This document shows positions 2,889 to 19,727 of a DNA stretch of 20,247 nucleotides, piece by piece. The stretch is taken from positions 1-20,247 of IMG/VR virus record IMGVR_UViG_3300025687_000437; one strand, written 5' to 3'. A program made the translations under genes and the position numbers. Source of the stretch: a virus. Within the stretch, counting starts at the first letter, position 1. Every line of letters starts with the position of its first letter. The notes beneath the pieces are model-generated. The model saw only the letters and a program-made list of their open reading frames with translations. It did no database searches and was not told where the DNA came from.

Positions 2889-5266
2889 GCATCACTTCTG
2901 AGATTCGCCTCCGCGTCAGAAAAGAAGGCGATGTTGTGCTGAATCAGCTCAGCGCAAAGCTGAATGATGTTGCGCAGCGTTCAACTTTAACAAGTGCAAA
3001 ATTTAAAGATCTTTCTTCAACTCTTAAGCAAACAGATAATCAAATCAGAACCAAAAGTATTAATGGTCTGAATGACTATGCGCGTGCATGGCGCGAGCTA
3101 GCAAATAGCGTTGATATCACTAGCCGAGAATTTAAAGAGGCAACACGCGAGGCTCAGCGTTTTGAGCAGGCTGCTGCAAAGGCTCAGGGGCGGCGTGGTG
3201 GTGGTCGTTTGGCTGGCATGGCTCGCACTGCAGGTGCAGTGGCTGCAGCGGGCATATTCGGCGGTCCAGAAGGTCTTATTGGCGCCGGTATTGGCGGCAT
3301 TCTTGGTGGCGGTGCGGTTGGCGCAGGCGTAGGCGGTGCAATTGGCGCACAAGTCGGCATGTTCCGTCAATCGCTTGGCGAAATAGCCACTTTTTCAGCG
3401 GAACTTGCTCGTCAAGAGCGAGCATTAGAAGGGGTAGTCAGAACGCAAAATGAATATGCATATGCGCTTGAAGCCGTTGGTAGGGCGACCAAAGATTTCG
3501 CAATTCCTACAAGCGTATTAACTCGTGAATTCACCAAACTGCAGGCTTCTGTTGCTGGTTCTGGTGGCACTGTTGAAGATACTGAGAAATCATTTAGAGC
3601 AATTGTTGCTTCCATCCGAGCCACGGGTGGATCCATTGAAGATGTCAGGTCTGCACTGACTGCCACTGCTCAAGTTTTTAGTAAGGGCAAGGTTTCTGCT
3701 GAAGAACTTCGGCAACAGATTGGTGAACGCTTGCCTGGTGCTTTTACGATCTTTGCTGCGTCAATGAATAAAACGCCAGCAGAGCTGGATAAGGCATTGG
3801 AGAAGGGCGAAGTAAGTCTTCAAGACTTCATGGGCTTTGTTGAAAAGCTGCTTGATGAATACGAAGACAATGCCAAAAAGATTGCAGGCGGACCAGAGGC
3901 TGCGGGTGATCGCTTAAAGGTTGTTCTTGAGGATCTAAAGAAAACAACTGGTCCGATTCTTAAAGATATTGGTTCTTCTTTTCAGTCTTTTGCGGCGGAT
4001 GCAGCCCAAGCGCTTGATGGATTGATCAAGAAAATGGTCGAATTTGGTCGTCAGATGGAAGAAAAGCTTGGCGGACAATTATTGCAAAATGCAATTAAAA
4101 ATGTACAAATACAAGACACAGTTATTAGGCAGCTTGAAGCAGAGGCTCTCGTCAGGGTGGGCGGTTTAAGCGATACCGAAAAACAACAACTGCAATTAGC
4201 AAAAACTTTAAGAGCTGGAAGTTTAAAAGTAATTGAAGGTAGAAAATTTGGACCAGAGTTGCCATCTGCACCCAGCAAATTGCCTGGTGTTGATCCAACC
4301 AAAACCAAAACCAAGACCGGAGGAAAAGGTCAAGCCGATTATTCAGTTGCACTGGCAAATGCTCTTATTGCCGCAGAAAACGAACTGAATCCAATCAAAA
4401 AAATTCAGCTTGAATATGATGCTGAAATTTTAAAAATCAACGAAAGTAAACTTAAGCCTGAGCGGAAAAGGGTTGCTCTAAACGCTGCAAACGTAAAACT
4501 CAACGAGCAATCATTGAAGCTCGGCAATCAAATGGCGGCTGGTAATGCGGCTCTCATTATTAAAGATGGCGAACGCAATCGGCAAATTGAGCAAACAATT
4601 AAAAATCTTGAAATTGAAGCTGGAATTATTGATGAAAAACAAGCAAGGCAAATCGAAAAAGATCGCTTGATACAGCAGCTGAAAAAAGACGGTGCAACTC
4701 TTACCGAAGAGCAATTGCAACGCATTGATAAGGCTTACGAGGGCATCAACAAGAAAACCTCTGAAAGCATGCAGCTGTTCAAGCAGATTGGTCAGAACGT
4801 CGTCTCGGCGTTGTCTGATGCCTTCATGAGCTTGTTTGATCAAGCCAAGTCGCTTCGTGAAGTGCTTACAGATCTGCTTCGCTCCACTGCTCGTCTATTT
4901 GTTGAGTTTGGTTTGCGGGCAGGCATGAAGAGTATTTTTGGCTTTGCCAATGGCGGCATCATGACCGGCAACGGACCACTGCCCCTGAAGCGCTACGCAA
5001 GGGGTGGTATTGCCAACTCACCGCAGCTAGCCATGTTTGGCGAGGGCAGCACTCCTGAGGCTTACGTACCGCTGCCTGATGGTCGCAGCATCCCAGTCAG
5101 GATGAAAGGCGGCGGTGATATGGGCAACATCGTGGTCAACGTTGATGCTGCTGGCAGCGCAGTACAAGGCAACCAGCCTGATGCCAATAAACTGGGTGAA
5201 GCACTTGGCATTGCAGTGCGTCAGGAACTGATTCGCCAGAAGCGTCCCGGAGGCTTGCTCGCATAA
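2885..5266 (+). CDS. Tape measure protein (lambda H-like)
   Basis: This 793-residue protein sets tail length and later helps DNA enter the cell. The N-terminus is a long helical region (to about residue 100). A Gly/Ala-rich hydrophobic stretch follows at about 118-160. The conserved tape measure domain spans about 160-330 and contains SKGKVSAEELRQQIGERLPG (266-285). A long charged helical region then runs to about 660. The end (about 684-745) has the usual repeats around ANGGIMTGNGPLPL, RYARGGIANSPQLAMFGEGS and TPEAYVPLPDGRSIPVRM, as in lambda-type tape measures. Taking about 0.15 nm per residue, the tail would be about 120 nm if the full length counts. The ATG overlaps the chaperone stop. 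The stretch at about 4,080-4,700 is visibly richer in A than the flanks, which may reflect a mosaic history. Confidence 0.93.
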   Translation: MSITSEIRLRVRKEGDVVLNQLSAKLNDVAQRSTLTSAKFKDLSSTLKQTDNQIRTKSINGLNDYARAWRELANSVDITSREFKEATREAQRFEQAAAKAQGRRGGGRLAGMARTAGAVAAAGIFGGPEGLIGAGIGGILGGGAVGAGVGGAIGAQVGMFRQSLGEIATFSAELARQERALEGVVRTQNEYAYALEAVGRATKDFAIPTSVLTREFTKLQASVAGSGGTVEDTEKSFRAIVASIRATGGSIEDVRSALTATAQVFSKGKVSAEELRQQIGERLPGAFTIFAASMNKTPAELDKALEKGEVSLQDFMGFVEKLLDEYEDNAKKIAGGPEAAGDRLKVVLEDLKKTTGPILKDIGSSFQSFAADAAQALDGLIKKMVEFGRQMEEKLGGQLLQNAIKNVQIQDTVIRQLEAEALVRVGGLSDTEKQQLQLAKTLRAGSLKVIEGRKFGPELPSAPSKLPGVDPTKTKTKTGGKGQADYSVALANALIAAENELNPIKKIQLEYDAEILKINESKLKPERKRVALNAANVKLNEQSLKLGNQMAAGNAALIIKDGERNRQIEQTIKNLEIEAGIIDEKQARQIEKDRLIQQLKKDGATLTEEQLQRIDKAYEGINKKTSESMQLFKQIGQNVVSALSDAFMSLFDQAKSLREVLTDLLRSTARLFVEFGLRAGMKSIFGFANGGIMTGNGPLPLKRYARGGIANSPQLAMFGEGSTPEAYVPLPDGRSIPVRMKGGGDMGNIVVNVDAAGSAVQGNQPDANKLGEALGIAVRQELIRQKRPGGLLA

Positions 5267-18085: not shown

Positions 18086-18325
18086 ATGGACAACCGCTTG
18101 TCACTGCTCGGTGGTGCACTCGCGTTGCTAACCACTGTTGTGGCGACGACGGTCACCATCGACTCGCGTTACGCCAAGTCAGCAGAAGTCAAACAGCAAT
18201 TTTGCCAAGCACGCAAACAGCAACTGCGTGACCGTATTTTTGAGCTGGATCTAAAGAATCCCAAAACACCAAACGACAGAGCGTTGCGAGAATATCTGCA
18301 ACAGCAACTTCGTGATGGATGCTGA
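18086..18325 (+). CDS. Small N-terminally membrane-anchored protein in lysis region
   Basis: This 79-residue protein has a hydrophobic stretch at about 6-25 (LLGGALALLTTVVATTVT) after a short positive N-terminus. A charged helix follows (SAEVKQQFCQARKQQLRDRI, FELDLKNPKTP, REYLQQQL). One anchor followed by a charged helix is the layout of inner-membrane spanins and holin-associated proteins. Its place before an M15 peptidase agrees with a lysis role, but no lipoprotein (o-spanin) partner is visible in the window. The gene starts right after the previous stop and overlaps the next ORF by 11 bases. Call it a membrane protein of unknown function, possibly lysis-related. Confidence 0.65.
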   Translation: MDNRLSLLGGALALLTTVVATTVTIDSRYAKSAEVKQQFCQARKQQLRDRIFELDLKNPKTPNDRALREYLQQQLRDGC

Positions 18326-18458
18326 AACCTTAGAGAACTGGCGAAAGATCAAGGCAGCACTGGAAGCAGCAAATAAGAAGGATTGCGATTATTACAAAAG
18401 GGCAGTTGCTATCTTGAAGGGACAGCCAGATCCATGGCGCCCACCTTCGATAAACTGA
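18315..18458 (+). CDS. 47-residue hypothetical protein
   Basis: The ATG at 18315 overlaps the end of the membrane protein gene; a GTG three bases earlier is an alternative start. The product begins MDAETLENWRKIKAALEAAN and continues KKDCDYYKRAVAILKGQPDP before WRPPSIN. The helical LENWRKIKAALE and YYKRAVAI segments look like a compact two-helix protein. I recall similar short proteins in cyanophages but no function. It has no signal sequence or membrane segment. The overlap with its neighbour and the well-formed helices favour a real gene. Confidence 0.6.
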   Translation: MDAETLENWRKIKAALEAANKKDCDYYKRAVAILKGQPDPWRPPSIN

Positions 18459-18476: not shown

Positions 18477-18680
18477 GTGGATCCTTTTCTGACGCCATTG
18501 GTAACGGCTGCAATTATTGCCGGTGTCAGTGCGCTTTGGAGGATCGATAAGCGAGCCAGCGTGATGGATGCTCGCATGGCTTTGATTTTGGAGCAGATCA
18601 CGGCTTTGCGATCAGACCATAAAGAAAGACTGGACGATCACGAAATCAGGATTCGCTCTCTGGAACAAGGTCGCAAATAG
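18477..18680 (+). CDS. Small membrane protein with coiled coil, putative holin accessory (XhlA-like layout)
   Basis: The GTG start is supported by AGGAG at 18466-18470. The 67-residue product has a hydrophobic segment at about 4-21 (FLTPLVTAAIIAGVSALW). A heptad-like helix follows (MALILEQITALRSDHKERLD, then DHEIRIRSLEQGRK). The ending is like that of XhlA-type haemolysin/holin accessory proteins, although in that family the membrane segment is often at the C-terminus. It could help to form or time a membrane lesion with the neighbouring small membrane proteins. The evidence is layout only, so the name is tentative. It ends 30 bases before the next ORF. Confidence 0.62.
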   Translation: MDPFLTPLVTAAIIAGVSALWRIDKRASVMDARMALILEQITALRSDHKERLDDHEIRIRSLEQGRK

Positions 18681-18710: not shown

Positions 18711-18848
18711 ATGGACTTTCTCAACGAAGCTTGGTTTTGGGTGCTGATCGGTGCAGCGTCTGAAATCATCGGCATGTCGCCTTTGAAGTCGAACAGCGTA
18801 ATTCAGCTTGTGCTGACTGCTGTCAAATCGCTCAAGCCAAAAAAGTAG
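18711..18848 (+). CDS. 45-residue membrane microprotein, short (0-frame) product
   Basis: An ATG at 18711 gives 45 residues: MDFLNEAWFWVLIGAASEII, then GMSPLKSNSV, IQLVLTAVKS and LKPKK. It has a hydrophobic/aromatic N-terminal helix (about 3-21), a short turn, an amphipathic helix (about 29-41) and a basic tail. Short proteins with the same W/F-rich, A-A-S-E-I-I-G, K-S-N-S-V-I/V-Q-L pattern are, to my memory, widespread in cyanophages without assigned function. The last codons are CCA AAA AAG TAG, which form an in-register A AAA AAG slip site followed by a large stem-loop, so a longer form is probable. The 30-base leader has no Shine-Dalgarno sequence; CATACT at 18702-18707 is too close to the ATG to be a convincing -10. 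Confidence 0.72.
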   Translation: MDFLNEAWFWVLIGAASEIIGMSPLKSNSVIQLVLTAVKSLKPKK

Positions 18849-18911
18849 ACGGCATCCCTGCGGACGGGCGCTGGCTTTATCGGTTCAGCACCCGTTCCAG
18901 TTGGGATGTTG
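18839..18911 (+). promoter_or_regulatory. Probable programmed -1 frameshift signal: A AAA AAG plus nested stem-loop
   Basis: A AAA AAG at 18839-18845 is in register with the 18711 frame (cc-A AAA AAG TAG). Downstream, C18850-G18911, two G-U pairs and CATCCC (18853-18858) with GGGATG (18903-18908) form an outer stem. An inner stem pairs 18862-18874 with 18885-18897, with one C-A mismatch (18869/18890) and two G-U pairs. The spacer is 4 bases to the first pair, or 7 to the perfect core. Slip site, stop, spacing and structure all fit a stimulated -1 frameshift. Confidence 0.68.
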
Positions 18912-19147
18912 CTAATCGCGCCATTCAAGCGCGGAAATTTCATACTATTTTGCCGCACAAAATTGATGCAGAGGTTGAGCGTGTAGCCGAGATCATTGAT
19001 TTAGAACTGGAGCGGCAGAAGCGGCATCCAGAAATTAAACACGAAGAGCCAACACCTGAGCAGACCGGCGATAGCCGTTTACTCGGTGGACCGATGTCAA
19101 TTTCTTCACCTTGGGACGATGACCCAGAACCGCCTTCGGCTGCATGA
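18845..19147 (+). CDS. Probable -1 frameshift extension of the membrane microprotein
   Basis: This frame is open from upstream of 18845 to the TGA at 19145-19147. It has no ATG, GTG or TTG until a TTG at 18950 that lacks a ribosome binding site. The part before that TTG still reads like protein: VDGIPADGRWLYRFSTRSSW, then DVANRAIQARKFHTI. Slipping by -1 at 18839-18845 joins 45 residues of the microprotein to 100 more, giving about 145 residues. The extension has a mixed N-terminal part, a charged helix (DAEVERVAEIIDLELERQKR) and an acidic, Pro-rich tail (SPWDDDPEPPSAA). It has no membrane segment, so it would be a soluble domain on a membrane anchor. The end overlaps the M15 peptidase start by 29 bases. 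I do not recognise a family. Confidence 0.65.
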   Translation, partial: VDGIPADGRWLYRFSTRSSWDVANRAIQARKFHTILPHKIDAEVERVAEIIDLELERQKRHPEIKHEEPTPEQTGDSRLLGGPMSISSPWDDDPEPPSAA

Positions 19148-19727
19148 CTTGTTCCGGTATTACAAGGAATTGCCGCATCAGACTGCTGCGATTACGGAAC
19201 TTGAGGAGGCAATCCTCAAGAAGTCGCCTGCGATTTTTAACCGCGACCAAGAGTGGTTTAAGACTTGGAGCCAGGCAGGAAAACAAGTCGAGACCTCTCC
19301 TAAAAGCTTGTTCACTCCTGATAAGCCTTGGAGTTTCAAGGTCACTCCAAACGTGACTTACGGCGAACTGACGCTGAATGAAGAGGAGCGTCGTTTTACT
19401 AAGCAACAACAATGTGATACCGCCTTGGAATTGTGCAAGTACTTAGAAAAAGTGCGGGCACATTTTGGCGGCAAGCCAATTGTAATTACTAGTGGTCATC
19501 GTCCAGCGGCAATCAATCAACGTGTTGGCGGCTCTAGCCGGTCGGAGCACTTGTACAACATGGATGGCGTCGGCGCTGTTGACTTTTACATCGCTGGCGT
19601 CGATATCTACGCAGTACAGGAGTATGTTGATCAAACTTGGCCGTACAGCCTTGGATACGGCGCACCGAAAGGGTTCGTGCATCTAGGCAAGAGGCTGGGT
19701 GGTCCACGCATTCGATGGAATTACTGA
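19119..19727 (+). CDS. M15-type peptidase, probable endolysin
   Basis: With the ATG at 19119 the product has 202 residues; an in-frame GTG at 19086 would add 11. Residues about 119-202 form an M15A-type zinc peptidase domain: VITSGHRPAAINQRVGG, then SRSEHLY, a loop, GAVDFYI and GFVHLG. The likely zinc ligands are H144, D155 and H188, with R128 in SGHRP typical of the family. Between H144 and D155 there are ten residues, about four more than in the usual S-x-H-x-x-G-x-A-x-D motif. The N-terminal part (about 1-115) is helical and charged and may bind the cell wall or regulate the enzyme. These enzymes cut peptide cross-links in peptidoglycan. No signal peptide is seen, so release would need a holin; the small membrane proteins upstream are candidates. 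Confidence 0.8.
   Translation: MTQNRLRLHDLFRYYKELPHQTAAITELEEAILKKSPAIFNRDQEWFKTWSQAGKQVETSPKSLFTPDKPWSFKVTPNVTYGELTLNEEERRFTKQQQCDTALELCKYLEKVRAHFGGKPIVITSGHRPAAINQRVGGSSRSEHLYNMDGVGAVDFYIAGVDIYAVQEYVDQTWPYSLGYGAPKGFVHLGKRLGGPRIRWNY

Follow-up and report, generated by a model that had tools for sequence, protein, structure and literature searches.

A 45-codon, holin-like gene that lies just upstream of an endolysin gene in a 20,247-base viral contig (the window) is, we are close to certain, subject to programmed -1 ribosomal frameshifting at its 3' end. The gene, designated A, finishes on a slippery heptamer in its own reading register, and the -1 frame continues from there as a second open region, B. 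Translation would thus yield both the short protein A and an extended protein, A-B. This near-certainty is drawn from four features of the sequences: the heptamer and B occur together across relatives, B is selected as a protein, start codons of its own are mostly absent, and some relatives carry slip sites that are not runs of A. The best explanation for the arrangement, and in our judgement a probable one, is that the frameshifted gene provides a holin-like protein, A, together with a modulator of lysis, A-B. The features of the locus are collected in Table 1.

Table 1. Features of the frameshifted locus and its neighbours in the window.
Feature	Position	Strand	Details
67-aa protein with N-terminal membrane helix and coiled coil	18477..18680	+	Conserved upstream neighbour of A
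ORF A	18711..18848	+	ATG 18711, stop TAG 18846-18848; 45 aa, MDFLNEAWFWVLIGAASEIIGMSPLKSNSVIQLVLTAVKSLKPKK
Slippery heptamer A_AAA_AAG	18839..18845	+	In A's reading register; abuts the stop codon
B	18845..19147	+	-1 frame, 100 codons and stop TGA 19145-19147; product A-B of 145 aa
Predicted hairpin, candidate frameshift stimulator	18850..18911	+	4-6 nt 3' of the heptamer
Endolysin (Peptidase_M15_3)	19119..19727	+	Pfam PF08291, E 3.7e-20; ATG 19119 probable

ORF A ends in CCA AAA AAG TAG. The initial annotation of this DNA had described a 45-codon ORF with an in-register slip site at its stop, followed by a -1 frame open to 19147 with no ATG, GTG or TTG before the TTG at 18950, and the sequence bears out both points. 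The AF2 model of the A protein (pLDDT 84.6) comprises helices at residues 7-22 and 29-40 with a short helix between them, corresponding to one membrane helix and a second that is half-hydrophobic, with a basic tail. With a pI of 9.4, an acidic N-terminus and a basic C-terminus, the protein probably adopts an N-out, C-in topology. As expected of a holin, A is small, has a transmembrane helix and a charged tail, and is encoded inside the lysis module. In PHROGs it matches phrog_22542 (E 1.6e-19), a family of unknown function; searches of Pfam, PHROGs and NCBIfam matched no named holin family, the PHROG matches being to unknown-function families, and a motif pattern scan across the window gave no match.

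The gene order of the window runs from tail proteins through small ORFs to the M15 endolysin and further genes. The endolysin ORF is in A's frame and overlaps the last 29 nt of B. The coiled-coil gene immediately upstream of A is a possible partner of A; it is weakly XhlA-like in relatives (the S-CBS1 homologue against phrog_937 hemolysin, E 0.0024), and a membrane coiled-coil gene occupies this place in 86 of the 113 B-bearing loci with enough upstream sequence. Among the 104 B-bearing loci with 1.2 kb of downstream sequence, an endolysin follows in 74, in keeping with the location beside the endolysin given in the initial annotation, and a small terminase gene (terS) follows in 10; neither was recognised within 3 kb downstream in 16. 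In three T7-like isolates A sits between the tail fibre gene and terS, the place occupied in T7 by the holin gene 17.5. Two overlapping small ORFs further upstream in the window (18086-18325 and 18312-18458), the first with an N-terminal membrane helix, are possible further lysis or envelope genes. In one relative (L256, region 3138-4100) B lacks a stop ahead of the endolysin and continues into it in one frame, so that frameshifting there would give an A-B-endolysin fusion; the endolysin also has its own ATG.

The site at A had been called the second frameshift of the contig, and a tail-chaperone site, A_AAA_AAC, is indeed present at 2541. That heptamer (2541-2550, within the pair 2224-2888) stands right before the stop of a 108-aa ORF, and the -1 frame continues to 2888. 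Whereas a gene of the G/GT type lies upstream of the tape measure gene, A adjoins the endolysin.

B encodes an acidic (pI 5.1), mostly helical polypeptide; a single long helix spans residues 19-60, and the tail is disordered. Together with helix 7-22 of A, this upholds the earlier description of the 145-residue product as a membrane anchor joined to an acidic soluble domain. The AF2 model of B was too uncertain for a fold search (pLDDT 67, pTM 0.31), and a comparison of B with solved structures found no match. The C-terminus carries a conserved motif, L-GG-x-M-x-I-x-x-PW, of which LLGGPMSISSPW, LHIRAPW and GWSISLTSPW are examples. A dN/dS check proposed for the -1 frame was run on 382 pairs of 5-30% divergence, which are not independent of one another and of which practically none has a ratio above 1 (fraction below 1, 1.00). 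The ratio was 0.163 over the whole of B (pS 0.436, pN 0.099, no stops) and 0.125 over the 20 codons that follow the slip, in line with purifying selection; ORF A gave 0.164. Read in the two remaining frames, the bases of B gave 1.32 and 2.14, and each pair then had several stops.

To survey relatives of the locus, we searched IMG/VR with B alone, which returned 18 loci of 61-62% identity in the same -1 register. An A-like ORF lay in frame +1 to B and overlapped it at A's stop in 17 of these, and direct translation of the 18th (L001) revealed the same A. The A and B pair also occurs in the siphoviruses S-CBS1, S-CBS3 and KBS-S-2A of Synechococcus, in S-EIVl, and in the Autographiviridae S-B28, WH11-B and 7B11-B. 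Scans based on A extended the family to at least 526 relatives in IMG/VR. Relatives of A also occur in bacterial MAG contigs (L108-L112; Rhodobacteraceae, Hyphomonadaceae and others), which are probably phage contigs binned with bacteria. For the census we retained 142 non-redundant A loci from viral contigs and isolates, no two of them sharing over 90% nucleotide identity across A plus 90 nt; the presence of B in them was called by motif and then corrected by eye.

An open B in the -1 frame was found in 124 of the 142 loci, and all 124 have an in-register X_XXY_YYZ heptamer upstream of the 0-frame stop, within four codons of it. The heptamer is A_AAA_AAG in 110 loci, C_CCA_AAG in 7, G_GGA_AAG in 6 and A_AAA_AAC in 1; one locus (L184), for which the script chose an upstream T_TTA_AAG, also has AAA AAG and was counted as A_AAA_AAG. 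At the same place, none of 17 B-less loci has a heptamer, so the alignment of homologues suggested by the initial annotation came out as it had anticipated, with slip site and open -1 frame retained together. A further B-less locus (L039, with its near-copy L038, in the region of about 3130-3200 of L038) retains A_AAA_AAG as a relic after deletion of B. Because B served as a query in two of the scans, the ratio 124:17 should not be read as a population frequency; the weight of the argument is placed, at the level of sequence, on the association between heptamer and B. As a background, 1006 other plus-strand ORFs of at least 60 aa from the related loci were inspected over the four codons before their stops, and none has N_NNA_AAG (N = A, C or G) there. 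In E. coli, with stimulators present, the heptamers of highest reported efficiency are A_AAA_AAG, C_CCA_AAG and G_GGA_AAG (PMC4066793), and 123 of the 124 B-bearing loci use one of them.

That B is instead a separate gene with its own start, at TTG 18950 or at the TTG of S-CBS1 gp23, is very improbable, even though S-CBS1 gp23 and S-CBS3 gp22 are annotated as separately started. The first ATG, GTG or TTG in the -1 frame past the slip in the window is TTG 18950; about 35 codons of the conserved B domain precede it, so the conserved protein cannot originate there, and the initial annotation's proposal that a start there would overturn frameshifting needs correcting on this ground. The conserved IPxDGRWLxRFSTRS stretch precedes both the TTG 18950 and the gp23 start. 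S-CBS1 gp23 (NC_016164) is annotated from LWRFSTRS, downstream of the conserved GLIPADGRW, S-CBS3 gp22 (NC_015465) is likewise modelled from an internal codon that omits the conserved first residues of B, and KBS-S-2A has no gene model for B in GenBank. Upstream of the slip, the -1 frame, which is open and under protein-level selection, offers a start codon in 7 of 123 loci and none in the other 116; 6 loci lack one throughout B. These counts rule out independent initiation as a general mechanism, short of a family-wide use of rare starts such as ATT or ATC; the perfect co-occurrence of heptamer and B speaks against it as well. We give equally little credence to RNA polymerase slippage, or an assembly or sequencing error, in the six A residues of A_AAA_AAG, and reject both because 13 non-redundant loci have C_CCA_AAG or G_GGA_AAG with no run longer than three, and because A's stop and the -1 register recur across independent isolates and contigs.

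An RNA hairpin is predicted just downstream of the heptamer in the window, with a minimum free energy of -35.5 kcal/mol and a z score of -5.05; none of 200 shuffled sequences was equally stable. Over the family, windows at +6 to +30, just downstream of the slip site, fold more stably than shuffled sequences, with mean z from -1.0 to -1.45, against +0.13 to -0.62 for upstream windows. A gapless RNAalifold analysis of 64 loci found no universal downstream structure; the structures obtained for two sub-clades were weak, with changes on both sides in 0 pairs of one and 1 pair of the other. No covarying structure emerged for the family, and Rfam gave no match. The window plausibly has a stimulator, while one shared by the family is at most putative. 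Some tailed-phage frameshifts have been reported to operate without stimulators (PMC5009743).

These observations suggest the following mechanism. Most ribosomes would terminate at A's stop codon, yielding the 45-aa holin-like membrane protein, while a fraction would slip back one base on A_AAA_AAG, by tandem re-pairing of tRNA-Lys, and go on to make the 145-aa A-B. The longer product would combine A's membrane anchor with an acidic, mainly helical tail ending in the conserved PW-containing C-terminus, and the positive-inside rule would place this tail in the cytoplasm. A would serve as a holin or holin component, and A-B, entering the same oligomers at a fixed ratio, would modulate or perhaps delay pore formation. 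A secondary and likely effect is that the frequency of slippage may also feed into endolysin synthesis, since only frameshifted ribosomes would translate up to and past the endolysin start. Taken by parts, a role in lysis is likely; that A-B acts specifically as a holin modulator is a reading to which we give slightly less than an even chance. The notion of a ratio-controlled lysis system, raised by the initial annotation, fits the gene order.

The C-terminal motif of B offers a different perspective. It also ends stand-alone cyanophage proteins that have their own hydrophobic N-terminal segment, namely S-CRM01 g111/phrog_3316, proteins of S-CBP3 and S-CBP4, T4-GC410/phrog_6464 and S-CRES3 gp115. 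Loci with stand-alone proteins bearing the PW-type motif are L118, L119, L120, L123, L124 (the T4-GC410 family), L125 (g111), L273 and L274. An hhalign comparison of B with the stand-alone proteins gave a probability of 84.5 over the C-terminal 22 columns alone, a match so short that the motif relation counts as a lead and reaches no further than the C-terminal end of the tail. The shared motif might be a short, cyanophage-specific docking motif. In S-CRES3 the two parts are separate, an A-like ORF coming before a B-like ORF in one frame, and this arrangement suggests that A and B are functional partners joined elsewhere by frameshifting. The cyanomyovirus proteins with the motif sit outside the lysis region, and B may therefore do something other than regulate a holin. 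On this basis A-B could be a membrane-anchored adaptor that tethers the B tail for a purpose unrelated to the timing of lysis, for example by recruiting a factor of host or phage origin late in infection, with A perhaps a holin and perhaps not. Motif-bearing membrane-type proteins at several sites beyond lysis regions favour such an adaptor; it is nonetheless unlikely, given that B attached to A is nearly always found in the lysis module and that the profile match is confined to those 22 columns.

Alternatively, frameshifting might serve mainly to set endolysin translation, with slipped ribosomes opening or reinitiating at the endolysin start, slip frequency fixing the ratio of endolysin to A, and the sequence of B being secondary. 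In all 52 loci that have the common endolysin N-terminus, the endolysin gene shares A's frame and contains the stop of B 13-32 nt from its start. Where B is missing, A's own stop overlaps the endolysin ATG (L066, L071) or the endolysin begins within about 50 nt of A (L038, L039), so that ribosomes are always delivered there. The MS2 lysis gene is known to be coupled in a related way (cited in PMC5009743). We nevertheless think it unlikely that this is the main purpose, because selection on B at the protein level is strong far upstream of the overlap, at the ratio given above for its first codons, and because the T7-like phages keep B although their downstream gene is terS.

The reading that we prefer, a holin-like A with a modulating A-B, has partial precedents. 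The lambda gpG/gpGT pair similarly arises from a phage gene with a slip heptamer near its end and a -1 extended product made at a fixed ratio, but these are tail chaperones, whereas A is a membrane protein of the lysis module, and no sequence relation was seen. Lambda S105 and S107, a holin and its antiholin, are two lengths of one gene product made from two start codons. They provide our working analogy, as a small membrane lysis protein in two lengths at a set ratio; S107 and S105 differ at the N-terminus, whereas A and A-B differ by a long, frameshift-made C-terminal tail, and antagonism is only putative here. In T7, a -1 frameshift near the stop of gene 10A gives the capsid protein 10B. 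Like A-B, 10B and the products of other capsid frameshifts (PMC5009743) are minor, C-terminally extended proteins, but they derive from structural capsid proteins.

Dual-length holin products from two start codons are also known for SPP1 gp24.1/gp26 (PMC6316719). This system and XhlA/XhlB of PBSX resemble the present locus in combining a one-TM protein and a second small membrane protein with an endolysin; however, the TM helix of XhlA and gp24.1 is C-terminal and XhlB has two TM segments (PMC6316719), and the coiled-coil gene here is only weakly hemolysin-like. In MS2, whose lysis gene is coupled to coat translation, out-of-frame ribosomes likewise reach a lysis gene start (cited in PMC5009743). 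MS2 differs as an RNA phage with no conserved heptamer and with a downstream lysis gene in place of a selected fusion protein.

Frameshifting and dual-length holins are thus each known already, the latter through dual starts (lambda; SPP1, PMC6316719). What appears to be new is a holin-like gene whose second product would come from a conserved -1 slip, for which we found no counterpart among open-licence papers. Nor did the literature on frameshifting in cyanophages, holins or lysis cassettes within that set contain an earlier account of it, and the S-LBS1 and KBS2A papers mention neither a holin nor a frameshift.

Most known cases of programmed frameshifting in tailed phages concern tail chaperones, capsid proteins or tail proteins. 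The present one affects a small lysis-module membrane protein and recurs in cyanophages of unrelated morphotypes, and public viral contigs contain hundreds of relatives. B, unannotated or mis-started in GenBank, is a clear case of a conserved protein missed by gene callers, and the family offers 124 natural slip-site variants for study in a host other than E. coli. More tentatively, the locus may exemplify a widespread, unannotated form of lysis control in tailed DNA phages, in which one gene encodes a holin, A, and, through -1 slips at top-ranked heptamers, its membrane-anchored regulator, A-B, the slip also feeds the endolysin, and a single ratio sets all three levels. Since the gene lies in the cell-lysis module, the slip may help to set the timing or manner of host burst, which would provide a handle on lysis control in cyanophages, viruses that lyse a large share of marine primary producers.
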